Part shown: positions 21,583 to 40,140 of the stretch, one piece after another
Numbering within the stretch: position 1 is the stretch's first letter
Layout of the letters: each line of letters begins with the position of its first letter
DNA from: Syncephalis plumigaleata
Taxonomy: Eukaryota; Zoopagomycota; Zoopagomycetes; Zoopagales; Piptocephalidaceae
Assembly (NCBI GenBank): GCA_025201365.1
Contig: JAIXMF010000072.1
Location: 1 to 46,198 of the forward strand
Direction of reading: 5' to 3'
DNA length: 46,198 nucleotides
Program-made: the position numbers and the translations under genes
Notes under the pieces: generated by a model
Seen by the model: only the letters and a program-made list of their open reading frames with translations
Database searches by the model: none
What the model was told of the DNA's origin: nothing

Positions 21583-22640
21583 TTAATACATAAGCGACTT
21601 TCCATCCAAATTGCGCATTTATCCTTTAACATTTGCCGTTTATTAATAAACTTGCATAATTAAACACCATTATCACCGTAGATATGCCAATTGATATAGC
21701 GTAATAATAATAACAATTCAGTATTAGTAATGGATCCTTCATTGATAGCGATGACTATCATCATCAATTCTATAAGGTAGATGATACAAATGTACGAGTA
21801 TAGTTGGATATTGCCATGTCATGTACTTACAAGTAGTAATAAACTAGTATGATAGATAAGTTATGATGATAATGCTTACGATTAATTGCATAGAGAGCAA
21901 CGAGTGAACAAAGTGAACACACGATAAACAATATAATAAACAAGCAGTAAGTAGTAGAATGACTGACTTGTCACGAACAAATAAGGAATGAGCAAGGAAG
22001 GGTGCATGAACATGTATGCCAGTTTATTCGAAGAAGCAGTGTATGCTTGTAGGTAGATAGAGTATGTAGATGGAAATAAACAAATAAAAATACAAATAAA
22101 AGCATGACGTATTGGTGGCATACAAACAGATGACGGAAAAGAGTGGTAAAAGTAAAAGGTGCATACTATAACGAGAGCAGTAAACGCTTAAGCATTGATA
22201 AATAAGCAGGACAGTGATAGAAAACAAAGGACTAGAACGAACAATAAACAAGGCTTATTAGTATAGTAATAATAACGACAAGTGAGCATGTAGATAGGAT
22301 AGAGCAAGAGGAAAACAAAGGGATAAATAAACGTCATAGAGATAGTATGGCAGAATAGCTGCTATTGGGAATGTGTATGCTAAAGTGAAAGAGGAAGTAA
22401 GTGGAATGCGAATGACACGAAGAAGACGCGTATTACTGAGAAAGTAAATAGGTAAATAGCATATAGTTAAGAAGAAGTAGACGTGTGTTGTTTACTGACA
22501 AGTGGAATGTAGTTGACACAAAGAAGTGTGTTACTGAATGACAAGGAAAAAGAGATTAGCACGAAGAAGACAGCATTGGTAAAGAGAGAGAAAGAGAAAG
22601 AATGCTTTCATTGACTAATAAAGAAAATGATGAGTTTATA
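21583..22640. other. intergenic region left of the retrotransposon
   Basis: A 3' flank of UBP14 followed by AT-rich and then purine-rich spacer with no supported gene. Its last bases (22635-22640, TTTATA) include the TATA target duplication of the retrotransposon. They may also be the displaced outer tip of the Fanzor element's left inverted repeat. Confidence 0.6.
22637..22640. repeat. left target-site duplication (TATA) of the LTR element
   Basis: The four bases TATA immediately before the first LTR are repeated immediately after the second LTR (28392-28395). A 4-bp duplication is usual for gypsy-type integrases. It is short and AT-rich, so it supports but does not by itself prove the boundaries. 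Confidence 0.7.
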
Positions 22641-23040
22641 TGTGGTGCGGACACATCGTCTCCATAAGACATTAATTAAAAAAGTATATAATTCACGATG
22701 TCGCTTGCAATACTTTTGCGGTTGCATTGCACGTTTGTATGTTGTGACTTACCTAACCAGATATTCATACATATATAAGCTTCTACGAAGCACGTAAATT
22801 ATAATAAAATAAGTTCCGTTTTGAAATAGTTTGTGTGTGTGTCCTATCATTGTCCCTAGTCAGAGTTGGCTAGTGTTCTTTATACGCAGAGAGAGAAAGC
22901 TGTACGAGTGTACAGTTGGGAAAGAGATACACGACGGATTATTACGAGCGATTCATTAAGCCTAGTTACATTGCCGCCCAACGAGCTAGGAGAAGCAACA
23001 TGGCTACCCACGTCAGACCCGTCAATAACCCCCCGCCACA
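22641..23040 (+). repeat. 5' LTR
   Basis: A 400-bp LTR with TG...CA ends and a short terminal inverted repeat (TGTGG at the left, CCACA at the right). It contains a TATA-like box (TATATAAG, 22772-22779) and an AATAAA signal (22803-22808). Unusually, its last ~41 bp include the first in-frame ATG of the gag-pol frame (23000). Confidence 0.95.
22772..22779 (+). promoter_or_regulatory. TATA-like element in 5' LTR
   Basis: TATATAAG lies in the presumed U3 part of the LTR, about 30 bp upstream of the AATAAA motif. This matches the compact U3/R layout of LTR promoters. The same motif recurs in the 3' LTR at 28123-28130. Function is inferred from position. Confidence 0.5.
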
Positions 23041-26000
23041 ACTGGAGCCCAATGCGGGGACGGGTATTCCTATGGCGAGGGACTGTAATCCTCCTCCTAG
23101 ATTCACTGGAGAGAATGTTAAGGAGTTTATGCATCATTACGAACGCTACGCCGACTGGCTAGGCTGGAATAATGAGGCGAAGATAGAGTGTATCGTGAGT
23201 TATCTCACTCCAGATGCGACGGAGCTTGTGCTCATCCACCCCGGCACGTCCACCGGCGACTGGCCGCAAGTCAAGGAAATGCTACTCACCAATTATCGTC
23301 GGCGGCTAACTACTAGGTCGCCACGTGAGGTGTTAGCAGACTTACTGCGGAAAGGATTCGACTATGACGATCCGGAGTCATATTTGTCGAGGTACGCCAC
23401 AGTCACATCGTGTGTTCCGAACATGTCCGATAGCGAGAAAGCCGAGAGAGTATTCGACATCCTAGATGTGGATTTCAAGGAACGTTGCATGAATCACCTA
23501 GGCAGGAACTTTACCTTTGAGGAACTGCGGGAAGTGATCTTAGATTTGAAGTACAAGAGTAATCTTATCGGGAAGTCTTTGAAGAGAAGCGAGGAGTCCA
23601 AGGAAGCCCAGTCACGTAAGCAAGAACACAAGGAGCGTGACGACGAGCAAGATCTGTACGACAAGGTGGCTAAGATGGTATTACAAGTGGTCGAGAAGCG
23701 AGAAAACACCAAAAAGGTTCAGCGTCCCATGCGGTGTATTTACTGTGATGCTACTGACCATTGGAAGCCGGAATGCACGACGTTGACTGAGGATCTACGC
23801 AACGGGATAGTTAGGATGGTGGAAGGAAAGGTAGCATATCCCGACGGCGGTCACATACCTCTCAATAGCGGACGAGGCGGCATGCGCAGTTTCATTACCG
23901 AAGGAGTCAAGGTTCGGCATATCGCGCTCCAGGAACGGGAGAGACCGGTTGGATATGACGTATGTTGGCAGGAGATGACCAACCCGGAAGCGGTAGCACC
24001 CGAAATCCTGGTCAACGATCCATTTCAAGTGAACCACAAGCGTGCGAGGGTAGGTGCTGATCGGGAACAATCGGATGCTATGGTAGTGGATACTCGCGAA
24101 GCCGGTACAATGACGGAAAAGGCGAAGCGTGCACCACCTACTTTTCAGTATAGAGCACCCGTAGAGGAAGGAAGAGTGCCGGAAGAGGTCATCAATAGAG
24201 TGTTGCAACAGTCGCAGGTGACTATGAGTTTCGATGAGTTCATGGTCGTGTCACCAACAGCTAGAAAGGTCGTTAATGAAATGGTGTCAAGGAAGAGGGT
24301 CCCGATTGAGCCGAGTACCAACATGGTAGCCACTTACCAAATAAGGGAAGGGATCGAAGATCCATACGACAACGTGGTCGAGAGGAAGGAAGTCACGCGA
24401 GTTGCCAGACCTACTGCGGCAGTAATGGGTACGGTTGCGGGTATCCCCGTGAATATTGTCGTAGATCCTGGATCTGAGATCACGATCATGTCTGGACGTT
24501 TCTACGACAGGATCGGTCGACTACCTTTGGACACCTCCAAGGTGTACAGCATGGGTAACGCTTCTGGTACCAGTTCGACAGCTAGAGGGTTGTGTCCCAA
24601 TGTGCCCATAGAAGTTGGCAGCGTGCGAGTTCCTGCTCATATCGTGGTGATCGATGGCACTCCGTTCGACGCGTTGGTTGGTATGCCCTGGTTGGAACAA
24701 GCTCAGTGGGAGATCAGACGTGAGGGCAACGGTTCTTGGTACTACTTACGTGACAGTGAGCACTCCGTGAGGTTCCCTGCGGCACCTCTGGCTCCAATGA
24801 GTATCAGGCACGAGAATTACGTCCGACTACACTCGAACAGGATTACGTTGGACTCCGGTGCGGATGATGAGCTGGACAAGGACGAGGAATTGTTAGGCGT
24901 GGTCACGGTGAGAAGCTTTTCCGACAACGAGGAGACTTACATGACGTGCGCGGCGAAGTACAAGCCTGTCGGTAAGAAGAAGCTACCAATAGCGGTGCCG
25001 GTACCATCGAACGAGCGTCCTCAGGAGTTGGCAAGTGTTGTGCGACCTTTGGCGAAGAGGCTTACGGAGGAACGCCTTGCGGCAATGGTGATCGGTGACG
25101 ACGTCCTGCGAAAGGAAGAAGTAGCGTTTTTCAAGCAGCAATTACTTACCGTGGATCAAGCCTTTGCGTTCAATGACGAGGAGATGGGCCTGTTACGTCC
25201 TGAGGTGGAGCCGCCTATCAGGATACCCACTGTGAAGCATGAGCCGTGGTATCAGCGATCCATACCTATCCCGAGGGCGATCTTCGATCAAGTGGTGGAG
25301 CTGCTGCGTGTCAAGATGGAGAGTGGAGTCATCGAGTCAAGTAGTGGAGCCTACAGTAACCGGTGGTTCGTGATAGCCAAGAAGGACAAGAAGAAGTTGC
25401 ACTTCATACAAGACTTGCAGCAAGTTAACTCAGTAACCGTCAAGAATGCTAATACGCCACCGTTGAGTGAAGAACTGATAGAAGATGTGTCCGGTCGCGC
25501 CATTATATCTACGTTCGATCTGTATTCTGGGTATGACCAAATCCCCATTGATGTGCGTGACAGAGATATCTTTGCGCTCAATACACCTATTGGGTTGGTA
25601 CGTATGACGAGATTGCCGATGGGTTGGTGCAATAGTGTCGGCATCTTCCAGCGCATCGTCACTAAGGTGTTGAGACATCATATGCCGGAGAAGGTTGCTA
25701 TATTTGTCGATGACGGTGTGGTGAAGGGACCTATGGAGGCTGAGCAACACGAGGTGCTGCCTGGAGTGAGGAAGTATGTGTATGATCATGTGCTTGATGT
25801 GGTGAAGGTGATGGCGACGCTGAAGGAGGCTGGTTTGACGGTGAGCGGAATGAAGTGCAGATTCGGCATGAGCGAGGTGGAAGTGCTAGGTTATCAGTGC
25901 ACTCCTAGTGGAAGGACAGTGACCGAAGAGAAGGCTGAGAAGATACAGAAGTGGCCAGTACCTGTTAACAAGACGGAAGTGCGATCGTTCGTGGCTTGTT

Positions 26001-27958
26001 GCGCGTTCTATAGGCCATTGATATCGCAGTTCTCTATCGTCGCGGAGCCGTTGTATCATCTTCAGAAGAAGTCAGTGCCGTTCTATTGGGGCGAGGAGCA
26101 GCAACGCAGTTTCGAGGAATTGAAGAGACGAATTTCCACTTACCCGGTGATTACACCTCCTGATTATGGTGCTGGTGCGAAGTTCTTGGTGCTTACGGTC
26201 GATGCCAGTCCCGTAGGTGCTGGTGCTGTCCTGGGACAAGAAGGAGCCGACGGAATAAGGAGAGCGGTCAGATATGAAAGCTGCTTATTCAATCCTACGC
26301 AGAGGAGGTACGCGCAGGTAAAGAGGGAGTTATACGGTCTGTATCAGATGGCGAAGAAGCTGCGGAAATATGTGCACGGCGTGCATTTCATCATAGAGAC
26401 TGACGCTCGGTCGGTGATCGGTATGTTGAAGAAGCCGGACTTACCGAATGATGCAGCAAGTAGATGGGTAGCTTATCTTGCGTTGTTCGATTACGAAATA
26501 TGTCACATTCCCGGTGACAAGAACGTAGTGGCGGACGCGCTGAGCAGGACCACTCTAGATGAGCGAGAGCTATCGGACAGCGGAGACGAAGACGTGCTGT
26601 GGAACTACAGGATCGTGGAGCTGGATGAGGAAGAAGAGGAGATGTCTGTCGACAAGGTACAACAAGTTAGCGCTGATAGCACGAAAGGTGACCCATATTA
26701 TCAATTGTTACACTACCTGAGCAAGGGCTACTTACCAGAGGGTTCGACGGACGCGGATCGGCGGAGGATACGGGAACAAGCAAAGAAGTTCTTCTTGCAT
26801 GATGGATTGCTGTTCAAACGCGACAAGAGAGGTATGCCTAAGCGAGTGATCGAGGAGGCCAAAGAGCAAGTCAGAATAGTAGTAGCGGTACATCAAGGAC
26901 ACCCCTTCGCGCATCGAGGAGTGGAGTCTACTTACCGCCTGTGCAGCAATCGATTTTATTGGCCTAAGATGTACGATACCTGCAAGGAAGTGGTGAAGAC
27001 GTGTGACGCCTGCCAGCGATGCGGACATCGAGAGGAAGTGGAAGAGTTGAAGCCATTCTTGGGTTCTACTTTGTTCAAGCGGGTAGGAATTGACTTGATG
27101 AGGATGCCACGTTCGGAGGACGGCAAGGAGTATCTAGCGGTGGCCAGGGACGACTTCAGCGGATGGGTAGAAGCTAGAGCGCTAGAGAAGAATACGGCGG
27201 TAGAAGTGTACAAATTCTTGTACGAGGAGGTTATATGCAGGTTCGGAATACCGGGGGAGGTGATAGCGGATAGAGGAGAACTGTACGGGAAGCAAGTGCG
27301 TGAAGCAGCTATGGAGGATGGTATCGTGCTGCACTTCACTACTGCTTATCATCCGCAGACGAATGGCATGGTGGAGCGAGGACACCAAGAGTTGAAGAGA
27401 GGGTTAGTCAAGCTAGTAGGAGAAGACGTAACGCAGTGGCCTAAGTACTTACATGCTGTACTGTGGGCTGACCGAATAACGACGAAGAGGACGACAGGAA
27501 GAAGCCCATATCAGCTGGTATACGGACAGAGTTGCGTACTCCCGTTCGACATAGAAGAGGAAACCTGGTTGACAATACCGTGGAAGAAGGAGGTGTCAAC
27601 GGAAGAATTGTTAGCAACACGTGCTGAGCAATTATTAGTCAACGCGTGGGTAAGAGAAGGAGCGGGGGTGAAATTAGACAGGGCAAGACGTCAGAACAAA
27701 CGCTATTACGATGACAAGAAGAACGTGAGAGAGGGACGATTGACGGAAGGTGACATGGTGCTGATGAGGCAACAAAAAGTCGTACCTAGGTACCATGGCA
27801 AGCTAGTCGCCAAGTGGAGCGGTCCATATGTAGTGGTTGACTGTCCAGCACGAGGAGTGTATCTGTTGGCAGAATTAGATGGTACAGTTATGAAGACAAG
27901 CGTGTCCGGTCATCGCCTTAAGCGATATTTTGCGCCAATGAAGTTGGCTGCTGAATGA
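23000..27958 (+). CDS. Gag-Pol polyprotein of Ty3/gypsy retrotransposon
   Basis: One uninterrupted frame of 1652 residues from the first ATG, which lies inside the 5' LTR; the next in-frame ATG is at 23072, beyond the LTR. Positions from the first Met: Gag region (~30-230), zinc knuckle CX2CX4HX4C (~246-259), retropepsin-like domain with VDPGSE (~489) and the partner loop ALVGMPWL, reverse transcriptase with FVDD (~902-905), RNase H beginning LTVDASPVG, integrase zinc motif (HX6H...CX2C from ~1298) and catalytic D1365, D1424 and E1459. A GPY/F-like module (WSGPYVVV) follows, and no chromodomain was seen. The protease triad is D-P-G rather than D-S/T-G. The domain order, with integrase last, assigns the element to Ty3/gypsy. 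There is no frameshift between gag and pol. Confidence 0.95.
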   Translation: MATHVRPVNNPPPQLEPNAGTGIPMARDCNPPPRFTGENVKEFMHHYERYADWLGWNNEAKIECIVSYLTPDATELVLIHPGTSTGDWPQVKEMLLTNYRRRLTTRSPREVLADLLRKGFDYDDPESYLSRYATVTSCVPNMSDSEKAERVFDILDVDFKERCMNHLGRNFTFEELREVILDLKYKSNLIGKSLKRSEESKEAQSRKQEHKERDDEQDLYDKVAKMVLQVVEKRENTKKVQRPMRCIYCDATDHWKPECTTLTEDLRNGIVRMVEGKVAYPDGGHIPLNSGRGGMRSFITEGVKVRHIALQERERPVGYDVCWQEMTNPEAVAPEILVNDPFQVNHKRARVGADREQSDAMVVDTREAGTMTEKAKRAPPTFQYRAPVEEGRVPEEVINRVLQQSQVTMSFDEFMVVSPTARKVVNEMVSRKRVPIEPSTNMVATYQIREGIEDPYDNVVERKEVTRVARPTAAVMGTVAGIPVNIVVDPGSEITIMSGRFYDRIGRLPLDTSKVYSMGNASGTSSTARGLCPNVPIEVGSVRVPAHIVVIDGTPFDALVGMPWLEQAQWEIRREGNGSWYYLRDSEHSVRFPAAPLAPMSIRHENYVRLHSNRITLDSGADDELDKDEELLGVVTVRSFSDNEETYMTCAAKYKPVGKKKLPIAVPVPSNERPQELASVVRPLAKRLTEERLAAMVIGDDVLRKEEVAFFKQQLLTVDQAFAFNDEEMGLLRPEVEPPIRIPTVKHEPWYQRSIPIPRAIFDQVVELLRVKMESGVIESSSGAYSNRWFVIAKKDKKKLHFIQDLQQVNSVTVKNANTPPLSEELIEDVSGRAIISTFDLYSGYDQIPIDVRDRDIFALNTPIGLVRMTRLPMGWCNSVGIFQRIVTKVLRHHMPEKVAIFVDDGVVKGPMEAEQHEVLPGVRKYVYDHVLDVVKVMATLKEAGLTVSGMKCRFGMSEVEVLGYQCTPSGRTVTEEKAEKIQKWPVPVNKTEVRSFVACCAFYRPLISQFSIVAEPLYHLQKKSVPFYWGEEQQRSFEELKRRISTYPVITPPDYGAGAKFLVLTVDASPVGAGAVLGQEGADGIRRAVRYESCLFNPTQRRYAQVKRELYGLYQMAKKLRKYVHGVHFIIETDARSVIGMLKKPDLPNDAASRWVAYLALFDYEICHIPGDKNVVADALSRTTLDERELSDSGDEDVLWNYRIVELDEEEEEMSVDKVQQVSADSTKGDPYYQLLHYLSKGYLPEGSTDADRRRIREQAKKFFLHDGLLFKRDKRGMPKRVIEEAKEQVRIVVAVHQGHPFAHRGVESTYRLCSNRFYWPKMYDTCKEVVKTCDACQRCGHREEVEELKPFLGSTLFKRVGIDLMRMPRSEDGKEYLAVARDDFSGWVEARALEKNTAVEVYKFLYEEVICRFGIPGEVIADRGELYGKQVREAAMEDGIVLHFTTAYHPQTNGMVERGHQELKRGLVKLVGEDVTQWPKYLHAVLWADRITTKRTTGRSPYQLVYGQSCVLPFDIEEETWLTIPWKKEVSTEELLATRAEQLLVNAWVREGAGVKLDRARRQNKRYYDDKKNVREGRLTEGDMVLMRQQKVVPRYHGKLVAKWSGPYVVVDCPARGVYLLAELDGTVMKTSVSGHRLKRYFAPMKLAAE
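23043..23060 (+). other. candidate primer-binding site
   Basis: Two bases after the 5' LTR the sequence reads TGGAGCCCAATGCGGGGA. A TGG right after the LTR is expected for pairing with a tRNA 3' CCA end. The implied tRNA would have U at the discriminator position, as tRNA-Cys usually has. I cannot check against this genome's tRNAs. The site lies inside the translated frame if the ATG at 23000 is used. Confidence 0.45.
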
Positions 27959-27975
27959 AGTCAATGCTGACTTCA
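27956..27975 (+). other. hairpin overlapping the gag-pol stop codon
   Basis: TGAAGTCA and TGACTTCA are exact reverse complements separated by ATGC, giving an 8-bp stem with a 4-base loop that begins at the stop codon. It sits 16 bp before the 3' LTR, where a polypurine tract would normally lie. Its role is unknown. Confidence 0.6.
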
Positions 27976-27991
27976 ATTGGGCCCTGGAGAT

Positions 27992-28391
27992 TGTGGTGCG
28001 GACACATCGTCTCCATAAGACATTAATTAAAAAAGTATATAATTCACGATGTCGCTTGCAATACTTTTGCGGTTGCATTGCACGTTTGTATGTTGTGACT
28101 TACCTAACCAGATATTCATACATATATAAGCTTCTACGAAGCACGTAAATTATAATAAAATAAGTTCCGTTTTGAAATAGTTTGTGTGTGTGTCCTATCA
28201 TTGTCCCTAGTCAGAGTTGGCTAGTGTTCTTTATACGCAGAGAGAGAAAGCTGTACGAGTGTACAGTTGGGAAAGAGATACACGACGGATTATTACGAGC
28301 GATTCATTAAGCCTAGTTACATTGCCGCCCAACGAGCTAGGAGAAGCAACATGGCTACCCACGTCAGACCCGTCAATAACCCCCCGCCACA
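27992..28391 (+). repeat. 3' LTR
   Basis: A 400-bp copy with no difference from the 5' LTR found on reading. The preceding bases (GGGCCCTGGAGAT) contain only a very short purine run, so no classic polypurine tract is visible. Confidence 0.95.
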
Positions 28392-28395
28392 TATA
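28392..28395. repeat. right target-site duplication (TATA) of the LTR element
   Basis: Direct repeat of 22637-22640. The next base starts the CATCAGTCG inverted repeat of the Fanzor element. Confidence 0.7.
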
Positions 28396-28426
28396 CATCA
28401 GTCGATAATGAGGAATGGAAATATAT
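28396..28426 (+). repeat. left terminal inverted repeat of Fanzor element
   Basis: The first 15 bases (28396-28410) are a perfect inverted match to 31612-31626, and 11 of the next 16 also match. A 15-bp perfect pair in two ~600-bp flanks has low chance probability. Confidence 0.85.
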
Positions 28427-28847
28427 TATCATTGTTAACGAAGTAAAGGAGGAGGAAATAATGTAGGTAATGAAGTAAAGGGAAAGGGAAAGAGAAGCAA
28501 CAATACAATGGATACTTGGAAATGGATTGATAGGCCATTAATCAAGTGTTAACAAATAGATAAGGAGAAGTTGCTAATGGAAGCATTAGTAGAATGCAGA
28601 TGAATATATTAACATCCATTACAAGACTCTGTTCATTTATTAATAACGAATATATTTAATAAAGTGTTAACAAGATTACTAGTACTTACTGATTGCTAAA
28701 TTATCATCGGCGTTATACCATTGCTACAATGACACTAGATGATACGAGTCTTACTGTGCTGCGCTGTAAATGATACTACTTACCATAATAGATTCACCCT
28801 TCCTGTATGTGTCTGCACGAGCGTTTCACCCCTACGTCATCAGATCC

Positions 28848-28857
28848 GCGCAGTTAG
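28848..28857. repeat. possible subterminal inverted repeat arm (GCGCAGTTAG)
   Basis: This 10-mer is the reverse complement of 31319-31328 (CTAACTGCGC), so one copy lies on each side of the Fanzor gene. A 10-bp pair of this kind could arise by chance in regions of this size, so it is reported as tentative. Confidence 0.3.
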
Positions 28858-28873
28858 TACTACCAACGTGCCA

Positions 28874-28883
28874 CGTATATAAA
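28874..28883 (+). promoter_or_regulatory. TATA-like element upstream of Fanzor
   Basis: GTATATAAAG lies about 107 bp before the Fanzor ATG, inside the element. It is the best promoter-like motif between the left inverted repeat and the gene, so the gene probably carries its own promoter. Confidence 0.5.
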
Positions 28884-28989
28884 GAAGCGTCTATACTACA
28901 ATAAAAGAAAAGATTAATTAACCCTTCATATTGTAACTGTTCTTGTTTTAACATACTACTATTATATTGAATACTATTCCATTTCATCC

Positions 28990-31207
28990 ATGGCGTCACA
29001 GCCAGGCACTCATGGCTCGTCTACTTCTGCCGACAGTGAACGAGTTCTGGCTGTGAAGTCTTCGCTTTCCGGCATTGGTTGGAAGAGGCATCACGATGTT
29101 TTGCGCGATTTTGTAGACATCGTACACACCACGACCTTCCATGCTTATGCATTAGCGAAATATATATTCCTTAAAGAACATAATAAGCGAAACTTTAAGT
29201 TCGAAAATTATATTCGTGAAGACTTCTTCAAACAAGTATGGCTTTCCTTAATCAAGCGTACACGCAAAAGCACACCCAAAGAAAAAACGGTTCGATATCG
29301 CAAATTCATCAAGAAGCATCTCAAAACCTACCTTAAACTTACTGACTATCAACCGCCGGTTTTAGCCTATGCCGATCAGTCAGCTACTTATGAGGCAACG
29401 AAGATGTACGTTGCTTACACCAACAACGTCAGATTGCGTTTTGGCGAGTTCCTTCGGCGTGCTATTAACAAGTTTTTCGATGTCAAGGAGAAGCTAAAAG
29501 ATATGAGGAAGGAGATGCTAAAGGATATGAAGAAGGAATTGCCCGAGGATGTAAAAGCTGATGAGCTTCGCGCGAGAACCAGAGCAATCACTGATCCAGC
29601 AAAAGAGTTCAAGCTAGCGATGGTACACCGAGGGGGGATTGAAGCGTTGGCTAAAAAGGATCGCGCATTTACCAGAGCATTCAGCAAATTCAAAAATGTT
29701 TTAAATGCTTACGATAAACGTTACGACTTTGGTAAAAACGGCCTTTATTACGACTGTAAAGAAAACCCGGTGAAGCACTTTAAGGCGTTCTTTGAGCTTG
29801 CGCGCGTGTTCCCTCGCATCCATTTGAAGGCTTTCAACTGCTTCCCCCTGCGTCGTTCGTTTTCGCCATGCTACGTCCATATCGACACAGTTATTCTTTG
29901 CCACAACATATTAGGACGCAAGTTTGAGAATATGGACCATATGAGGGAATATTGGAACGATGCCGTGAACCTTAAGTCAAAGCCACTTAGAAAGCAAAAG
30001 GGTGGTGAACTCAAGTTTTCTGGCTCGATTGAGACCGATGGCGTTGGTGTCACGGTCATCAAAAAGGGCATCGAGAAGGTCACCGAGGAAGGGGGAGCGA
30101 AATCAGCAAAGGATCCCTTCCCGTATATCAGTAAATTAAAAGCTGAGGATCACAAGGCAATCGACGGCAAATGCGTGGCGGTGGACCCGGGAAGAAGGAA
30201 CTTACTGTTTTGTGTACACGAAAACTCGACGGTGGAAAATAAGCGCAAATATCAGTACACGAAACTACATCAGGACAAGATGCGGAGGACGAAGAAATAC
30301 CGCAAGATTCGCGAGGACTGCAAGAAGGGGAACCAGGCGGTGCTGGATGCCGAAGCAGCTCTTTCAAAAGCCCAGGGCAACACTGTATCACTGGTGAATT
30401 ATAAGAAATATCTGAAGTATCGAGCACAGCACACAGATGTTCTCACCAGCTTTTACAAAGATACTCTCCCCCTCCCCTCCGACCATTCTGCCCAACATCC
30501 TCTCTTCAGGAAGTTGAAATTGTCAGCCTACATCAGCAAGCAGCAAAGTGATCAAAAGCTGATTGATGACTTAAGGGAGAAATTCGATGGGGATGCAGCA
30601 TTTGTGATGGGGAACTGGTCCGCTCCTCACACCAAATACCACGAGCCCATACGTGGTATTGGCTTTAGAAGGCTTTTGAAACGACATGGGTTTAAAGTCT
30701 TTCTAATCGACGAGCACAAGACCAGCAAGTGCTGCCCAGCCTGCAAGAATCCCACACTCGAGAAATTCAAGAAGGTCGCGAATCCTCGGTCGAAGCAACA
30801 TGAAGACAGTCATAGAATTATCTGTCATGGTCTTTTAAGGTAAGTACAATTTATTACACTTTGCTATTTATCATAACATATTAATTAATTATTTTATTAG
30901 ATGCACACATCAAACTTGTAAAGAGGCCATGAAAGATATAAAGGCTAAGAAGGAGCAAGAGGATATGATGGACGTGGATTATAAAGAGGATCCGGAATTT
31001 AACAGATACGATCATCGTTTATGGAATCGGGATATGGCTGCATGTCTGAATTTTATTCAGATTATTCGCAGTGTTCGTAAGGACAACCTTATTCCAACAC
31101 AATTTGAACGACGTGCCGTTCCTCCTCCTGATCCTAGTACATCCGCAAAGCATTCACTAAATGAAGATCAAGATCAAGAGGAACACAAACATCAAAAAAC
31201 AAATTAA
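28990..31207 (+). CDS. Fanzor (eukaryotic TnpB-like RNA-guided nuclease)
   Basis: Exons 28990-30839 and 30901-31207 encode 718 residues; the intron is 61 bp (GTAAGT...TTATTAG) and splits an Arg codon. The N-terminal half (~35-300) is Lys/Arg-rich and helical, as in TnpB/Fanzor wedge and recognition regions (FHAYALAKYIF motif). RuvC-I is VAVDPGRRNLLF (D399). At the usual RuvC-II site the residue is neutral (GNWS, N542), while LIDEHKTSKCC supplies the alternative Glu E575 typical of Fanzors. A zinc ribbon uses C582/C585 and C618/C623, the second pair lying across the splice junction. RuvC-III is NRDMAACLNF (D661). Known Fanzors are RNA-guided DNA endonucleases using a structured RNA from the 3' part of their locus. 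All motifs are intact, so this copy may be functional. The tail is Pro/Glu/Gln-rich. It most resembles the larger Fanzor1 class. Confidence 0.93.
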
Positions 31208-31210
31208 CCA

Positions 31211-31226
31211 GGTTGTATCGTCAACC
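31211..31226 (+). ncRNA. hairpin 1 of candidate Fanzor guide-RNA scaffold
   Basis: GGTTG pairs with CAACC across a 6-base loop (TATCGT), starting three bases after the Fanzor stop codon. It abuts the next hairpin directly. Fanzor guide RNAs are known to come from the 3' end of the gene and its flank, so this position fits. Transcription cannot be shown from sequence. Confidence 0.45.
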
Positions 31227-31254
31227 GCCACACTGTCGCCCAAACGACAATGGC
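31227..31254 (+). ncRNA. hairpin 2 of candidate Fanzor guide-RNA scaffold
   Basis: An outer stem GCCA/TGGC and an inner stem TGTCG/CGACA enclose the loop CCCAAA, with a 3:1 internal loop (CAC opposite A). It follows hairpin 1 without a gap, so the two could stack. The rest of the candidate RNA would run from here toward the right inverted repeat, with the guide beyond the scaffold. The end points are unknown. Confidence 0.45.
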
Positions 31255-31352
31255 ACCCAAAATACGGAGTAGTAATACTTGTAAGTGGTAAATATTATTT
31301 ATTCGTAATAACAGAAGGCTAACTGCGCAAATTGGATGGACAAAGCCTGTAA

Positions 31353-31631
31353 ATAAGCGATTTATTATGTGTAAATAATTGTCGTGTTTTTTTTACCTTT
31401 TTATTTCCCTGGGCCATACACAGCACTCGTATAGCCAGCATCTACAATGACAAACCGTCTGATCACCAACATATATTCAACTCATGGTCCTATACATTAC
31501 AGAATATTATACGAGCAAAATATCGCACAGCGTTAACGCTTTCGTCCACTTCGACATTTCGTCACAAGTGGCAATGGTTATGCGATGCCTTAAATGTAAA
31601 TTTTCACTCCCCATTATCGACTGATGGATAA
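31353..31631 (+). pseudogene. open frame without start between Fanzor and right TIR
   Basis: Ninety-two codons stay open up to TAA at 31629-31631, with no in-frame ATG. The last ~65 residues have protein-like composition (HIFNSWSYTLQNIIRAKYR, FRHKWQWLCDALNV), and the frame runs through the right inverted repeat. A pyrimidine-rich stretch ending CATACACAG at about 31437 could be an acceptor, but no upstream donor gives a matching phase. It may be a remnant of a second transposon gene or simply chance. No family recognised. Confidence 0.25.
31596..31626 (-). repeat. right terminal inverted repeat of Fanzor element
   Basis: Reads CATCAGTCGATAATGGGGAG on the minus strand and pairs with 28396-28426. 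It ends about 140 bp before the MSH2 start codon. Confidence 0.85.
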
Positions 31632-31767
31632 AATTTGTTAATTTTCTTTATTGGTCAATAAAAACATTATTTCTCTCCCCCTTTTTATTTCCCAATTTAT
31701 TTATATATTTCTAAACGCGATTGGTTTCGTATTTCGTTATTCATTGAACACGGAATCTAGTTTGACC
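31627..31767 (+). promoter_or_regulatory. short residual MSH2 upstream region
   Basis: Only 141 bp separate the Fanzor element's right repeat from the MSH2 start. The region is T-rich and holds two inverted CCAAT motifs (ATTGG at 31650-31654 and 31720-31724) and an ACGCG core (31715-31719). The latter resembles the MluI cell-cycle box used by fungal replication and repair genes. Function is inferred from motif and position only. Confidence 0.4.
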
Positions 31768-34700
31768 ATGAACATAGAAAAGCCGGAACTTGAACTTGGT
31801 AAGTATGCTCTGTACCGAGTATATGAGAATAGACTGTGAGTAGAAGAAGCAAGCGTGCTAATACAACGATAGACCAATCTACAACTCAGGGATTTTGTCA
31901 ACAGTACCGACAATTACCACAGGTAAGCAACATGACAGGATAGATCTATTGGCTTACCTAATAACATGATTGATGTATAGAAACCTGAACATACTATTCG
32001 GTTCTTTGAACGTAACAATGGTGTAAGTTACTATGTTACTAGTATATATATATATATTACATGCGAGCAATATCTAATAATAATAATAATAGGATTTCTA
32101 TAGTGTCCATGGTGAGGATGCACTTTACGTGGCCGATACACTTTATAAAACTACCGGTGTACTCAAATATCTAGGTGGTAAGTGGCTAGTGAATAGAAGG
32201 GGATAACAGATGATTGACGAAGGCATAGGTAATATAACCACGGGTATTCCTAGCTGTACGCTATCTAAAGTCACTGCCGAATCATTTTTACGCGATCTGT
32301 TGACGAGACTTCAATATCGCGTTGAAATATGGGCAACTGAATCGAAGAAGAATCAATCGTGGTATTTGTCGAAACAGGTATGACACACTGATGATTGATG
32401 TCTATGAATAGATGATTAAACATGTAACTAGGCATCACCGGGCAATCTACAAGCGGTAGAAGACATGCTATTCAATAATGCAGAAGTGACATCTCCACCG
32501 GTAGTCATGTCTATTTGGCTCAATAAGGATGCTAGTAATCAATTGGTAAGTAATATATACTGCTGTTATTGTTATTAATTGATTCTTTAGCATGCTGGTG
32601 TTTGCTTTGTCGATACTACGCAACGTACACTTGGTGTATGTGAATGGATTGACAATATACTCTTTACCAATGTAGAGGTAAGTGTAAACAATATAATAAT
32701 ATTCATAATAATAACATAATATGTACACGATTAGGCACTAGTTATTCAGTTAGGTGTAAAGGAATGCGTTCTACCCAAGACAGAAGCGGGCAAACAATAT
32801 GAACTTGGCAAATTACGCGCGGTACTTGATAGAAATGGCGTTTTACTTACGGATTTATCACAAAGTATTTCATTTGCATAGTGACAGTAATGATGAATAC
32901 TAACAATCAATTTACATTATTTCTACTCTCATTAGGTGCATTCCGTACTACACATGTTGACCAAGATCTACAACGATTATTAGGCGATACCTATCAGATT
33001 AGTCAAAGTAAGGAGCAGTTATTGTTGATTTATTTAGATATACTAAGTGTGTGTGTGTGTGTGTGTGTGTCTATTCTATAGATGATATGGAAATGAAGTC
33101 AGCATTGGCAGCCACGGCTAGTCTAATTCATTATTTGGAGGCAAGTGTCGAGATAATAGCAAACTAATATTTTAATATAGTTACTGGCAGATGAAACCAA
33201 CTACGGCTATTATTTACTACGACGACATGAACTATCGCAATTCATGCGATTAGACAGTGCTGCCGTTCGTGCCTTGAACCTCATGCCATCAGCTTGTCAA
33301 ACAAGTAGGAATAGATAGATAGATATAGATGAATAATGATTTGTTAATGAACTAATGAGGTAATCAATAGATCAAGCAGTCGTCAGTAGTGTATTTGGTC
33401 TACTGAATCGATGTCGCACTGCACAGGGTACACGACTATTGGCACAATGGCTAATGCAACCATTACTTGATATTAAGGAGATAGGTAAGCAATCTAGTAG
33501 ATGATAAGTTGGATCATGGAATAATATGAATACTGCTTATTATTATTACTATGTAGAGAAACGACATACTCTAGTGGAATTATTCGTCAATAATACTACA
33601 TGTCGACAAACATTACAGGTAATTGAGAATGTTAAATTGGCTATATTTACACTAATAATTGATTCATTGATGTAATAAATAGGATTTACACTTGAAACGA
33701 ATGCCTGATTTACATCGCTTATCAAAACGACTACAACGAGGCACGGCCACTCTTCAGGTAATTCAAATAAATATATAGAAGAGATAACATTCGATAACTG
33801 ATTATTACTCATTGAATACAGGATGTAGTACGTGTCTATCAGGTACTCATACAATTGCCGTTGATGTTGGAAGCGTTAAGGGAAGTCGAGTATCCATCGG
33901 AGGAACATCAAACACTCGTTGAGGTCACGTATATTCAACATCTAGAGGCAAGTATTCCATAATGGATCATTGATCATAGATAATAATACAGTCAATTAGA
34001 GTTACCACGATCAATTGTCTAAGCTAAAGGAAATGATCGAGTTGACTATTGATCTCGAACAAGCCGATTATCATCAATACGTGATTCGTGCCAACTTCGA
34101 TGAAGGATTACAAGGTAATAAGATGATCAGTTATGTAATAGAATAGCTAATATTGACAAACAATGATAGAATGCAAGGATAGATCAGATGGACTATTCAA
34201 AGAGATGCAAGACGAGTATAGACAGGTAAGCTATGCTACGCTGTATAGTTTAATGGCATACAAGAAGATTAATGATGATGATGATTACTAGATGGCGCAT
34301 CAATTACATATGGAGGAGGATAAAAAGATTAAGCTAGAAAAGTCAAATATATACGGATACTGTTTCCGCATTACTAGAACTGTACGTTATCTCTAGTCAT
34401 TCTATGTAGTGTAATAGTAACAATGACGATATCAATAGGAAGCTGGTGGACTAAGTAAGGCTAAGACTAAAGTGATTGAATTGGCGACACAGAAGGCGGG
34501 TCTCTACTTTACAACACCTCAATTGAAGCAATTAAGCGAAGCGTACACTGATACACAAGCGGAATATCAGCGTATTCAGTCAACATTGGTCAAGCAAGTC
34601 ATTGAAATTGTTGGTAAGTTGCTTAGCAGTAATACTAGACGTGATGATATTGATAACACTTTGATTAGCCACCTACTGTCCTATTATGGAGAATCTAAAC

Positions 34701-36280
34701 GGATTATTGGCTCATTTGGATGTGATTGTGTCGTAAGTGTATACGATAATGTAATAGTGTACGATATCTAACGGGTAATGACTATTGACAGCTATGCTTA
34801 CGTGGCAGTGCATGCACCCATACCGTATATTCGACCTGAAATGCATCCTAAAGGTAAATCTATAAAGATAGGATAGATAGATAGATAGATGGAATGCCTG
34901 GCTAATGATGAGTAGACTATGGCAAGGTATCATTGGAGGATGCGCGACATCCATGTCTCGAAGCATTAGATGGAATGACGGTCATTCCAAATGATATAGA
35001 ATTACAACAAGGTACGCTATCAATGTCGATGATGATGATGATAGTAGTAGCTTATATAAATATATGTATATATAGGAAAACGAGACTTGCTACTTGTTAC
35101 AGGTCCAAATATGGGTGGTAAAAGTACCTTTATTCGACAAGTAAGTGGAAATGAGATGTAGCAACTGAAGGCAATCATATACTAAATGGCAACTAGTTGG
35201 GTGTCATTGCTTTGATGGCACAAGCAGGTTCATTTGTGCCTTGTCGAAAGGCCACACTAACAGTATTCGATGCAGTACTCGCTCGAGTGGGAGCAAGTGA
35301 TAGTCAGTTGAAGGTAGTATATATATATATGATGGCAGATAAATCACTAGCTAGTGACTAATAGAGTGAACATCAAGGGTGTATCCACATTCATGGCAGA
35401 AATGCTTGAGACGGCAGCTATTCTACGAGTAAGTAAAAGTAGATAGGAATGAATGAGTGAAATAATAATCAATGATGAATTAGGCTGCTACTCCTCATTC
35501 GTTAGTGATTATAGATGAGCTAGGTCGAGGTACAAGTACATTTGATGGATTCGGTTTAGCATGGGCTATCTCAGAGTAAGCAGTGTACTAATCTCTCATG
35601 TAATGATGGTATGTTCTAACATACTACTGTACTATTGAATAGATTTATTGCCAAAGAGATTTGTTGCTGTTGTTTATTTGCTACGCATTTCCATGAATTG
35701 ACACAGCTTGCCGATGAACTGCCCAATGTCGATAACTTACACGTCACCGCTCATGCAGACGATAAAGGACAAGGCATTACGCTATTATATAAAGTGAAAC
35801 CAGGTAATTGATAGGGCAGCATGCTGACTACCACGACATGCTAACCATTCGATTCATTAGGTGTATGTGATCAAAGTTTCGGTATTCATGTTGCTGAATG
35901 GGCCAACTTTCCATCATTAGTAGTTGATGTAAGTCCATTGCATGCCTATATAATTATATAGGTTACTAATGATCATGATATCATGACTATTAGACGGCTC
36001 GTCGTAAAGCGATAGAACTTGAACAGACGGCAACGCATGATGGCACAACTACTCAGACAATTCTACCTGTAAGTATGGCTGTTAGTAAAAATGACACTCG
36101 ATAGATTACTAAATATGAGTAATGCGCAATTAACTAATATGGTATCACTATTTCCAGATGTCGGAGCAACAAGCATGGCAAAAGATGCAAGCGATTATGG
36201 CCATTGATGATGTGGATTCGCTGTCGGATCAAGTATTACGCCAGCGTTTAGAGCAAGCGTTGAACTCGACCGCTTCTTGA
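31768..36280 (+). CDS. MSH2: MSH2 DNA mismatch repair ATPase
   Basis: A 30-exon model gives 910 residues (family ~930-960). Later exons are 31890-31922, 31981-32022, 32093-32177, 32229-32377, 32432-32545, 32591-32677, 32735-32864, 32936-33007, 33082-33140, 33181-33304, 33371-33484, 33557-33618, 33683-33757, 33822-33947, 34000-34114, 34170-34225, 34292-34381, 34439-34613, 34669-34732, 34792-34853, 34916-35011, 35076-35140, 35197-35313, 35378-35428, 35484-35575, 35643-35803, 35861-35928, 35994-36068 and 36158-36280. MutS domain I includes [10 protein letters not shown]. The ATPase shows Walker [10 protein letters not shown] (670-678), Walker [13 protein letters not shown] (D749, E750) and [11 protein letters not shown]2 pairs with MSH6 or MSH3 to recognise mismatches in the nucleus. 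Exon 1 (31768-31818) is least certain: the strong GTAAGT at 31800 would break the frame, so a weaker GTATAT donor at 31819 was used. Introns after 33140 and 33947 begin with GC; the former is only 40 bp. Confidence 0.95.
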
Positions 36281-36297
36281 ACTTGTCCTGCTTCCTT

Positions 36298-36328
<31 letters not shown>

Positions 36329-36397
36329 CTTCTTATTGATTATTAAATTCTACTTGCACTGTAGCACATTCCCCTCATTAGTATATTCTATGTAACA
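36281..36397. other. 117-bp spacer with (CTTT)n tract
   Basis: Between the MSH2 stop and the F-box start lies a pyrimidine microsatellite (CT then CTTT units, about 36296-36332) followed by AT-rich sequence. The F-box promoter must be this short region or lie within the MSH2 3' end. Confidence 0.7.
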
Positions 36398-38059
36398 ATG
36401 ACTGTTCAGGAACTATGGGCACGCTTACCCAATGAACTACTTCGCCGTGTACTATTCTGCACGGATATTAAAACGGCAATTCGTTGTTTCGCTACTTGTC
36501 GGCGAATGTCCCTGTTCCTCGAGGATAATCAGCTATGGCGTCAGCTTTACTGGAACACCTTTAGTCATCATCCCTTGTATGAACATGAATGGCTCGCCGT
36601 TTATCAGCCGTATTATGAACAAGCGGGGCAAACAACTACCAAGCTTGCTATTCAATGGCGTCTAGCTACTAAGCATCGATTGTTAACGGAAGCAAATTGG
36701 TATCATAAACGTTACGTTGAATACCAGCATAAAGTGGAGATTGATACTACGACGTTCGCGCGTAATGTCTATCTTTATACCGGTTCATCGGGTGCACTGC
36801 TCTATATATTGCCTTTGAAAAAGTTACAATTTGTTAGTCCAACACGGAATAACCATGTCATGCCACTCTACTTTAGCGAGGGACACGATGACACACTGCC
36901 CGTGACTACACCCGGTTACTTGCGTGCCATGCTAGGTGCAAAGTATATCGTTGTAGCGTGTAGCGATAGAAGTACGGGGATAACTCAGTTGTTCGTGTGG
37001 CGAGCAGGCCAGCAAGTGCCGCTAATGTCAACCTATGTATCGCCCTATATTGCACTTGATCAACTGGTGGATCGTTGGCTACTAACCTCAGTGGATGTCC
37101 GACGTATTAAAGGTACAACGAGTGAAATGCTTGACATCTACAGTCCTATGGTAAATGAACGCGAACCGCTCATGCCAATTGATGTCATGTCGGATAAAAC
37201 GAGCGATTTATTCTTTGAGGTTTCGGTGATTAACGTGGAGACAGGCGATCTTATCTATCAATTTCGACATGTAACATCGTTGTCTGTCCATTTGCAACTT
37301 GTAGACAATGCATTAAGACTGTTTCGTATTTGCAGATTATCATCATCATCACCATCATCGACAACAACAGCTAGTGAAGCAGATACCGCAGAGCCAACCT
37401 ATTGGCAATGGGAATCATGGCGATATGATGGCAAGCGTAGGAATGAATGTCGCGCAAAGGGTACCATTGAATTGTCGCATCATTATAATGAGCAAGTTTG
37501 CTCGCGTGATCTTACCGAGAATCGCGTACTACTTACTCGTGCACCATTTCCTGTGGGCAGTGACGACACTTATTCGGTACTGGAAATTGACGAGAATCAA
37601 CAAAGCCCGACATCGACAGGTACTGGACAACGATTATGGACGGTAGCCGCGCGAAATTACGATTTGGCATTACCGTTCGCTAATCGATTAGTAACATTTG
37701 GACGCGGTGAGGATTGCTGTCTCATCGACATTGAGACGGGTGAGATTAGGGAGACCTACGCGGCAGGTTCCATCGATTGTATGGATTATGCCGTCGCTTC
37801 GTTATGTGTCGCGCAAGAGGGTGCCTCGCTAGCCATAATTGACGCGAAAACCGGCGAGAAAACAATGCTCGTCGAGAATTTGTACGATCCACGCGGTGGT
37901 TGGGGAACCCTTAAAAGTTGCGTTTACTACTGGCATCAAGGATCGACCGAGTTACGTATTTTGGATTTTAACGCTAATCCACCATTAGGCAGTGAAATGG
38001 ACAAAGAAAATACAGCACCCGATGAGTTGATGGTTCATGATTCATCGTGTATAGAGTAA
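36398..38059 (+). CDS. F-box protein
   Basis: An intronless frame of 553 residues, notable among its intron-dense neighbours. Residues ~6-50 (ARLPNELLRRVLFCTDIKT, then IRCFATCRRMSLFLEDNQLW) match the F-box, which binds Skp1 in SCF ubiquitin ligases. The remaining ~500 residues contain many short beta-like segments and blocks such as YDLALPFANRLVTFG and CCLIDIETGEIRETYAAG, suggestive of a beta-propeller-like substrate domain, but I see no canonical WD40 or kelch signature. A Ser/Thr/Glu-rich low-complexity loop lies near residues 314-330. The substrate cannot be inferred. It starts 117 bp downstream of MSH2 and converges on the phosphatase gene. Confidence 0.85.
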   Translation: MTVQELWARLPNELLRRVLFCTDIKTAIRCFATCRRMSLFLEDNQLWRQLYWNTFSHHPLYEHEWLAVYQPYYEQAGQTTTKLAIQWRLATKHRLLTEANWYHKRYVEYQHKVEIDTTTFARNVYLYTGSSGALLYILPLKKLQFVSPTRNNHVMPLYFSEGHDDTLPVTTPGYLRAMLGAKYIVVACSDRSTGITQLFVWRAGQQVPLMSTYVSPYIALDQLVDRWLLTSVDVRRIKGTTSEMLDIYSPMVNEREPLMPIDVMSDKTSDLFFEVSVINVETGDLIYQFRHVTSLSVHLQLVDNALRLFRICRLSSSSPSSTTTASEADTAEPTYWQWESWRYDGKRRNECRAKGTIELSHHYNEQVCSRDLTENRVLLTRAPFPVGSDDTYSVLEIDENQQSPTSTGTGQRLWTVAARNYDLALPFANRLVTFGRGEDCCLIDIETGEIRETYAAGSIDCMDYAVASLCVAQEGASLAIIDAKTGEKTMLVENLYDPRGGWGTLKSCVYYWHQGSTELRILDFNANPPLGSEMDKENTAPDELMVHDSSCIE

Positions 38060-38192
38060 TAAGCACGTCTTTTGCTTTATCGAATGATCAACACAAATGA
38101 ACTCATTAATAAATTACATAATTCATAATGCAACGTTTAGATAAGCAATAGAAAAAAGCTATCATTGACTTTATTTCATCCTGTTGTAGTAA

Positions 38193-40140
38193 CTAATGAC
38201 TACAGATTTCCTCGAAATCACACTTGGACAAATTGCGCTGCATTACCGAGTAGAACTTACTCCACGGGCAGAGTGGACCATCCCGTGGACAACCAGGTAT
38301 TTGTATGGGGCGCTCGTTAAGTAAAACACGTACAAAATATCCAGGATCTTCTTCATCTGCTTCTTCTTCATCGACACAGGCTAGCACTTCAAAGTGTAGA
38401 TTGGCCGCAAACGGAATGAGTTGCGACATTCGGAATAGACGATGCCGATTGAAAGTTGGCGTCTCGTCGTAAAGTCCCTATTATTTTATTTGTTAACATT
38501 CATCATTAGTATGTCGAATTAGATAAGCAATGAATAATGACAACAACTTACCATAAACGTCAATAGCATAATGATTGTATAATGTTGCGTGAAACTTAGC
38601 TGCCATGGCCGCTTCAACTGACCAAGTATAGCTCGTCTCATATTGCTTACCAACTCGTACATGGCCATCGTGCCATAACAGCGATTATCCCTGTGACCTG
38701 CTCCAACCCTACGATAGGTCAGTACGTCACCGACATAATCGGACAGTTCCATTATATTGGGATCGGGTCCGTAGGCACCGGGTGCATCATCGTACGGCAC
38801 TTCCTCCGAGTCTACATCGTCCAGTTCACTAGGGAATGCTTCTAGCAATTCACACCATTGATTTGTTCGATTATACGTGACGTAGTCGTTGATGCACAAA
38901 CGTGCCATATTCCTACCATCAGCGTAAGTGACATCGTAGCCTAGATAATCACTCAATTGCTGATGAATACTAGGGTAATATTGCTTGACGGGCAGCTTCG
39001 CTACTGTGCTATCGGCATTTAGCGCGTTCCACCTTGTTAGCCATGCGGGACAGGTGTAAAGCGCGTCAAGCTTATAATCTTGTCCCTATTAGCAAGTGAA
39101 GTCATAGTAGCAAACGCTACTCTATCAATGATGCATCCCTGTGGTTGCTTTTTATTACTGCTACTTTACCAATGGTGCTACGGAGATATCGTTTTTATCT
39201 ATTTCCTCGCCTGAAAATACGGAAGCATAGGCTAGTGCCGATGCCATACATCTGCCAATGACAATTATATTGTATCAATACAACTAATTGCTTATTGACG
39301 TGTGTTAACGTACCTTGGTGCATTTGCACTTGTATACTCCAATAGATTACGTCGTACATTAATATCACGCTTGTTCGCAGTGGAACGTGGATGATCGTTA
39401 TGCTTGCCATGTTTGCCATGTTTGCCATGCTTGATCATTGCGTTCTTGTAACGGCAAATATCACGATGGGCCAGCTGTTGCATGTCCCGTTTGCCTTGTT
39501 CGGTTAGCTCGTTGGCCTGCGCTAAAGCAAGTGGATTACGCCACTCCCTCAGCCAGTCGGGCCATTCCGGATCGTTGATCAAGTGTAGCTTCTTCTCCAA
39601 TTTCTTCCATGCTCGAATGGTCGCCTCTTTCGGGTGATCGGTGCCATGTCGCGCGAACAACTGTAGATGTACGAGTTTGCACATATCGGGAACACGTCCG
39701 GGGTCTTGCTCGTCCGATGCACACGTGTCATTGGTCGACTGACTGGTAATTTCCGGCAATGGATGTTTATAAGGTGTATAAATATTCAACAGGTTCTTCA
39801 CCGGCTCATGATGATGCTGGTCACGCTCCTGTTCCTCGCCGGGTAACGGCACCGACGAATCATCACGAATACTGAGCAGTATCTCCACCAGTATCGTGAG
39901 CAGCACCAGTAGCCCGACCAGGAGGAATCTGCCACTTCGTCGACGAAACAGCGGCAATCTTTCATCCTCGTCTTTCGGCCACAAATAGCGTACTAGGAAG
40001 GGCTGACGCTCCTCTTGTCTTAGATCGAAATCAGCTTCATCGTCAGTATAAGGGTTCTCCACTGGTATTCTCCTTTCCGCGAGTCTCTCCGGTAAAGATG
40101 TCACTCGCGTCGCGTGTATGTGGGCTGCCGTACTTGTCAT
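38193..40140 (-). CDS. MINPP1-like histidine-acid-phosphatase family membrane protein
   Basis: Four exons (40140-39314, 39251-39170, 39085-38552 and 38477-38193) encode 575 residues. A cytosolic N-terminus of ~70 residues precedes one transmembrane helix (~71-91), so the rest is probably lumenal or extracellular (type II). The histidine phosphatase domain starts at HLQLFARHG (~158-166). Supporting family blocks are WRNPLALAQANELTEQGKRD, VTYADGRNMARLC, QWCEL and FTQHYTIIMLLTFMGLYDE. Active members use RHGxRxP and a second H-A/D-E motif to hydrolyse phosphate esters such as inositol polyphosphates. Here the first reads RHGTDHP (second Arg replaced by Asp) and the second reads QHY (~470-472), so catalysis is doubtful. 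A KHG triplet repeat lies near residues 240-250. The start is the first in-frame ATG. The gene is convergent with the F-box gene. Confidence 0.8.

Follow-up and report, generated by a model that had tools for sequence, protein, structure and literature searches.

A Fanzor1 gene within a probable Tc1/mariner-type element of Syncephalis plumigaleata and an asymmetry in the insertion flanks of its family

The window, a stretch of 46,198 nucleotides of Syncephalis plumigaleata DNA (contig JAIXMF010000072.1, here C354; the genome comprises 32.6 Mb in 383 contigs), carries a two-exon Fanzor1 gene together with a Ty3-type LTR retrotransposon and two LINE tails (Table 1). Its stretch 33000-39000 shows a 99% match to C1:1468549-1474547 and has no other match in the genome, which makes it very likely that C354 represents the other haplotype of C1.

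Table 1. Features of the locus, in positions of the window
Feature	Position	Strand	Evidence or remarks
Left TA target duplication	21587..21588	.	Aligned left ends of Fanzor copies and derivatives
Left terminal region	21589..21652	+	CATAAGCGAC in place of the initial ~10 bp in this haplotype; TTTCCATCCAAATTGCGCATTTATCC follows
Old reversed LINE tail (by alignment), outer part	22575..22640	-	Inside the element; continues at 28392
Ty3-type LTR retrotransposon	22641..28391	+	Nested in the Fanzor element; identical 400-bp LTRs, TATA duplication
Old reversed LINE tail (by alignment), inner part	28392..28425	-	Includes left 15-mer, 28396-28410
Fanzor1 exon 1	28990..30839	+	Open reading frame; spliced protein matches PpFz1
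Intron GTAAGT...TTAG (GT-AG)	30840..30900	+	Spliced product continues the PpFz1 alignment
Fanzor1 exon 2, with D661 (WNRD) and stop	30901..31207	+	Alignment to PpFz1
Hairpin GGTTG-TATCGT-CAACC	31211..31226	+	Directly 3' of the stop; candidate part of a guide-RNA precursor
Right terminal region	31276..31349	+	Kept even in the shortest derivatives; candidate omega-RNA scaffold
Right TA target duplication	31350..31351	.	Aligned right ends
14-bp duplication CCTTTTTATTTCCC	31396..31409 (left copy), 31680-31693 (right copy)	.	Flanks the LINE tail
5'-truncated LINE tail	31410..31679	+	270 bp, outside the element; holds right 15-mer, 31612-31626

The two-exon structure proposed earlier for the gene is confirmed, with a spliced product of 718 aa. 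In a phmmer search against the PDB this protein matched PpFz1 (E 1.8e-117), SpuFz1 (4.5e-42) and GtFz1 (0.0017) and, judged by its sequence, it is a Fanzor1 near Parasitella PpFz1. D399, N542, E575, the Cys-rich ribbon and D661 sit where the earlier note had placed them and align with PpFz1 and SpuFz1. That note had set E575 apart as an alternative glutamate accompanied by a neutral N542; the arrangement is present but is not unusual, as PpFz1 also has GNWSAP...LIDE. The L(I/L)DE glutamate before the TNB Cys pair is common to the window protein, PpFz1 and SpuFz1, and the N in GNWSAP is common to the window protein and PpFz1; thus, the alternative glutamate is the ordinary Fanzor1 arrangement. 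Cleavage has been reported for PpFz1, which has the same arrangement.

Such a glutamate has been termed E-alt, and DPG and E-alt are described as Fanzor1 signatures (PMC10711439); both are found in the window protein, as DPGRR at D399 and E575 in LIDEHKTS. The published Fanzor1 motif, D-X(125,275)-[TS][TS]-X-X-C4 zinc finger-X(5,50)-RD (PMC3627910), can also be followed through the protein, where (counted by eye) D399 is followed after 178 residues by T578 S579, then by C582/C585 and C618/C623, with R660 D661 36 residues past C623. The nearest model in a Pfam search of the protein was Cas12f1-like_TNB (16.1 bits, below the 26.3 cut-off), which is not family-defining, and exon 1 alone gave no Pfam match.

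Conservation extends to other Fanzor copies in the genome. For 14 loci, picked for an open exon 1 and hence biased towards constraint, the median dN/dS (Nei-Gojobori) over 91 pairs was 0.44 (range 0.285-0.527, all < 1), which is only moderate constraint. Position 575 is E in 13 of these 14 loci, while position 542 is N in ten and D in four. All of the 23 loci checked have the catalytic D; the E motif was found in 22, the exception being L030, and RD also in 22, the exception being L042, whose sequence may be truncated where the locus ends. L030 (C1:1615243-1617105) has an open exon 1 in which Lys replaces the catalytic Glu, and several Fanzor copies contain stops. A second Fanzor subfamily, approximately 56-70% identical to the window protein, is found on C320, C373 (three loci), C251, C2 and C329; its proteins were matched in three pieces at several loci, and the upstream 15-mer described below is retained at C251, at one C373 locus and at C329:302162.

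The ends of the element were located by aligning Fanzor copies and derivatives. With the Ty3 insertion set aside, homology between Fanzor copies runs from 21599 to ~31351, and the element spans TA 21587-21588 to TA 31350-31351, or ~4.0 kb net of Ty3. The ends (TACAGTG...TTTCCATCCAATTTGCGCA) resemble those of Tc1/mariner elements and have TA duplications. In the alignment the left terminus is TACAGTGTTTTTCCATCCAATTTGCGCAT and the right one, in the inward direction, TACAGGCTTTTTCCATCCAATTTGCGCAG. The TA is the duplication, and it was present where expected in 144 of 152 unique left-end strings and 163 of 175 unique right-end strings. The two TIRs are unlike, differing at bases 6-9 and past position 28. 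The element consists of asymmetric TIRs, a ~1.6-kb non-coding left part, the gene with its two exons and a right end that is short and structured. With high probability, the locus represents a single copy of a Tc1/mariner-type DNA transposon that is non-autonomous and carries a Fanzor1 nuclease.

The left end is altered in this haplotype. At 21587-21598 of the window CAGTGTT is lost and CATAAGCGAC stands in its place, whereas the unscarred C1 allele reads AATACAGTG. The sequence CATAAGCGA is a near-match to that just right of the element (AATAAGCGA in the window, CATAAGCAA in C1), and the scar looks like the outcome of a break at the left end repaired with sequence from the opposite flank. Because its left end is scarred, the window allele may not move. 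The nested Ty3 element has Pfam domains for RT, RNase H, integrase and protease, and its gag-pol frame is uninterrupted. It is missing from the C1 allele, that is, present in one haplotype only, and is a recent insertion.

A different extent had been proposed from a perfect 15-bp inverted repeat around the gene. The repeat was confirmed (CATCAGTCGATAATG at 28396-28410 on the forward strand and 31612-31626 on the reverse) and extends to 34 nt with 85% complementarity (28392-28425/31597-31630). A 3.2-kb transposon bounded by these repeats at 28396 and 31626 would account for their flanking the gene, and also for the left copy being kept upstream of the gene, 591-962 bp away and co-oriented, in 33 of the 41 Fanzor loci listed (a hand grouping of at least 90 genome matches, with haplotype copies counted, and a lower bound). 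Against it, an inverted exact copy occurs within 2 kb downstream in only one of these 41 loci, the window's own; homology on the left reaches ~1.1 kb farther out when Ty3 is set aside, and on the right it stops short of 31612. The right copy belongs to a LINE fragment beyond the element's end; this fragment is bounded by a 14-bp duplication of its own, and an empty allele exists for it. This empty allele and the other Fanzor copies refute the 3.2-kb element, which can be regarded as extremely improbable.

The 15-mer is abundant beyond chance: across the 32.6 Mb of the genome there are 68 exact copies and 22 with one mismatch (three for the reversed control), and 35 of the 68 exact copies are not upstream of any Fanzor gene. 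The earlier note had held that Fanzor copies without these repeats, or repeats widespread without relation to the gene, would refute its reading. Both were found in part. A TIR was rejected on the homology limits, the aligned ends, the LINE fragment and the single locus with a right copy. A regulatory motif was likewise rejected; approximately half of the copies precede Fanzor genes, yet the sequence is a LINE coding tail.

The inverted repeat is formed by two LINE tails that differ in age and point in opposite directions; one lies within the element and the other beyond it. The right 15-mer encodes the end of a LINE protein (PLSTDG stop), and the window segment 31410-31679 can be read in frame up to this stop. 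Five copies of the segment (L012, L015, L017, L018 and L020) have a common 3' end and differing starts, four of them extending further 5' than the window's and L020 beginning later. In L017 and L018 the segment ends a 505-aa open frame, which closes with PLSTDG or PLSTDV at the 15-mer, and the L017 frame has a zf-RVT domain (E 3.1e-9). From the in-frame reading, the end of the L017/L018 frame and zf-RVT, the supposed right TIR belongs to a LINE truncated at its 5' side and is that LINE's coding tail; no reverse transcriptase domain was seen for this LINE, as the loci compared begin downstream of its expected position. The segment 31410-31679 shows what is expected of a LINE tail: protein homology (zf-RVT in the longer copy L017), 5' truncation, a common 3' end and a target duplication, here of 14 bp. 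In the C1 haplotype (L022) the LINE segment is absent and a single CCTTTTATTTCCC (a 13-bp version of the duplication) is left.

The left tail aligns to the right one with 77/102 identities (E 4e-15) when the Ty3 insert is set aside, and read reversed it gives FHSSLSTDV. On this alignment, the supposed left TIR is internal to the element, where it represents a LINE tail that is older and reversed. Two retrotransposon tails can thus, by accident, give a convincing inverted repeat on either side of a gene. What was first observed, the repeat and the Fanzor gene, does exist; only the repeat's role as element boundary is lost. Similarly, the earlier interpretation stands as regards an open two-exon Fanzor1 with the expected catalytic residues in a DNA transposon, but its ends were misplaced.

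Besides ~41 Fanzor loci (lower bound), the genome holds hundreds of shorter derivatives that share these ends. The 19-bp TIR core TTTCCATCCAATTTGCGCA has 981 genome matches at ≤ 2 mismatches (reversed control, 0), and in eight short elements (L053-L060) the two ends of the Fanzor element are retained but the middle is missing. Flanks were read for 200 of the 302 left ends and 200 of the 415 right ends that match exactly. Among the left ends read, 113 were paired, giving 107 unique pairs, 99 with TA on both sides. By size (including short flanks), 14 of the 99 are < 300 bp, 37 are 300-700, 34 are 700-1500 and 14 are longer, so that 85 are < 1.5 kb.

No transposase had been seen between the 15-bp repeats, and none was found inside the true Fanzor element either. 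A Tc1-like (DDE_3) transposase produced from another locus may mobilise the elements; a search of the genome gave 31 DDE_3 matches. In six DDE_3 loci compared with the left TIR, the terminus of L066-L068 is 69-75% identical to it over 58-63 bp from base 1, L069-L071 gave no match and none is near-identical. An intact transposase with the same exact ends was not found, the DDE_3 frames of L066-L068 being partial or stop-bearing, and no such TIR occurs in the stretches examined around five identical 383-aa DDE_3 ORFs (L061-L065). Two candidate partners were rejected: L051 consists of two short derivatives either side of a transporter-type ORF (by eye), and L052 (C1:1009500-1013800) of a derivative into which an unrelated LINE has inserted. 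This LINE has RT (RVT_1) and RNase H domains and a 1141-aa open frame. At L070 (C1:571900-573700), another Fanzor copy is interrupted by a Tc1-like element whose terminal repeats are perfect over 213 bp and whose transposase ORF has 380 aa.

The structured right end could supply a guide RNA. The hairpin directly 3' of the stop shows covariation in 12 copies (61/72 cells paired, two-sided change in five of six pairs), which was matched in 0/2000 shuffles; these are 12 of 23 unique right ends, chosen to be distinct and hand-aligned with the pairing in view, and the shuffle ignores relatedness. A link between this hairpin and the guide RNA is a guess, because the shortest derivatives (L053 and the L051 copies) are without it. 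The right end that survives in them is about the length of the PpFz1 omega-RNA, which is reported as 75 nt with a first stem of 7 bp (PMC11423790), and 31276-31349 is inferred to be a candidate omega-RNA scaffold. Pairing of the last right-end stem (GGCT/AGCC) is broken in several copies, as seen by eye. Right-end RNA, with a guide from the right flank, may steer the nuclease to empty sites whose first bases form a short motif with TA at its end. The element would then be restored or spread through repair templated by the filled copy.

The question of what use Fanzors are to their carrier transposons can be approached in this genome, which combines many insertions with two distinguishable ends, many Fanzor copies and two haplotypes, so that a predicted target motif should be readable from the flanks. 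The target motif of PpFz1 is given as ATN (PMC11423790). If such a motif ends in the TA, A is expected before it at left ends only. Comparison of the flanks was prompted by a first look at a few of them, and the second half of the data was used as a replicate. Counted over unique strings with TA (eight left and 12 right strings without TA were dropped), A precedes TA at 83/144 left ends and 42/163 right ends (Fisher P = 1.7e-8). The first half of the data gave 37/71 and 24/82 (P = 0.0049) and the replicate half 46/73 and 18/81 (P = 3.1e-7). Within the 99 two-ended elements, A is confined to the left in 42 and to the right in 14 (P = 0.00023). The left excess has the same direction in all four size classes, being weakest at 300-700 bp (17 versus 13 of 37), and the background frequency of A before TA in the window is 0.32.

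The left-side A may be a fossil of RNA-guided selection, in which Fanzor acting in trans favours the retention or homing of motif-bearing insertions. Fanzor from the ~41 loci would recognise ATA beside a guide from each element's right flank, and would serve the short derivatives through the right end that they share. If true, the MITE swarm would be passive guide donors served by one shared nuclease. This account of the asymmetry is tentative and rather unlikely to be right. Left ends also have an excess of A at -2 (85/144 versus 68/163, P = 0.0029), at -3 (76/144 versus 56/163, P = 0.0012) and at -4 (four-base table, P = 0.0024), which counts against a pure ATN reading. Homing was looked for through homozygosity, with a negative result: insertions with A were no more frequent on both haplotypes than the others (seen at least twice in 23/81 and 15/57 cases, respectively; P = 0.85).

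Alternatively, Fanzor may be a functionless passenger decaying with a MITE-rich family, the asymmetry coming from a transposase that treats unlike TIRs differently. The TIRs do differ at their bases 6-9 and beyond position 28, and A-richness as far as -4 is broader than an ATN motif. Homozygosity independent of the motif also favours a passenger, as do the stops in several copies and the missing Glu of L030. It is harder to reconcile with dN/dS below 1 in 91/91 pairs (albeit from loci chosen for open frames) and with catalytic residues kept in 22 or 23 of 23 loci, the one lacking RD perhaps being cut short. This explanation is quite plausible, although its chances fall somewhat below even.

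The locus belongs to a known type, a Fanzor1 on a TA-type, Fanzor-only element like SPu-1; what is new is the asymmetry of the insertion flanks, offering a testable footprint. Among the titles and abstracts of open-access PMC papers listed, none was found on a Fanzor-linked MITE swarm or on a motif footprint in insertion flanks. SPu-1 of Spizellomyces punctatus, as described by Bao and Jurka (2013; PMC3627910), likewise has Fanzor1 as its sole protein, TIRs, no transposase of its own, putative TA target duplications and several intact copies. It is ~2.1 kb long, with a single ORF, 33-bp TIRs and 17 full-length copies, whereas the window family is ~4.0 kb, has two exons (more pieces in some paralogs) and different TIRs, and numbers ~41 loci (lower bound) plus hundreds of deletion derivatives. 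PUl-4 and other Fanzor1-only Mariner elements, likened here by their description in the same paper, share Mariner TIRs and TA duplications. The best solved relative of the protein is PpFz1 of the mucoralean fungus Parasitella parasitica (PDB 9cf0-9cf3; PMC11423790), with the same GNWSAP and LIDE. Opposite residues 984-1095 of the PpFz1 chain, the likely site of the FRI domain, the window protein has ~14 residues, and the ATN motif reported for PpFz1 fits the ATA flank of the window family.
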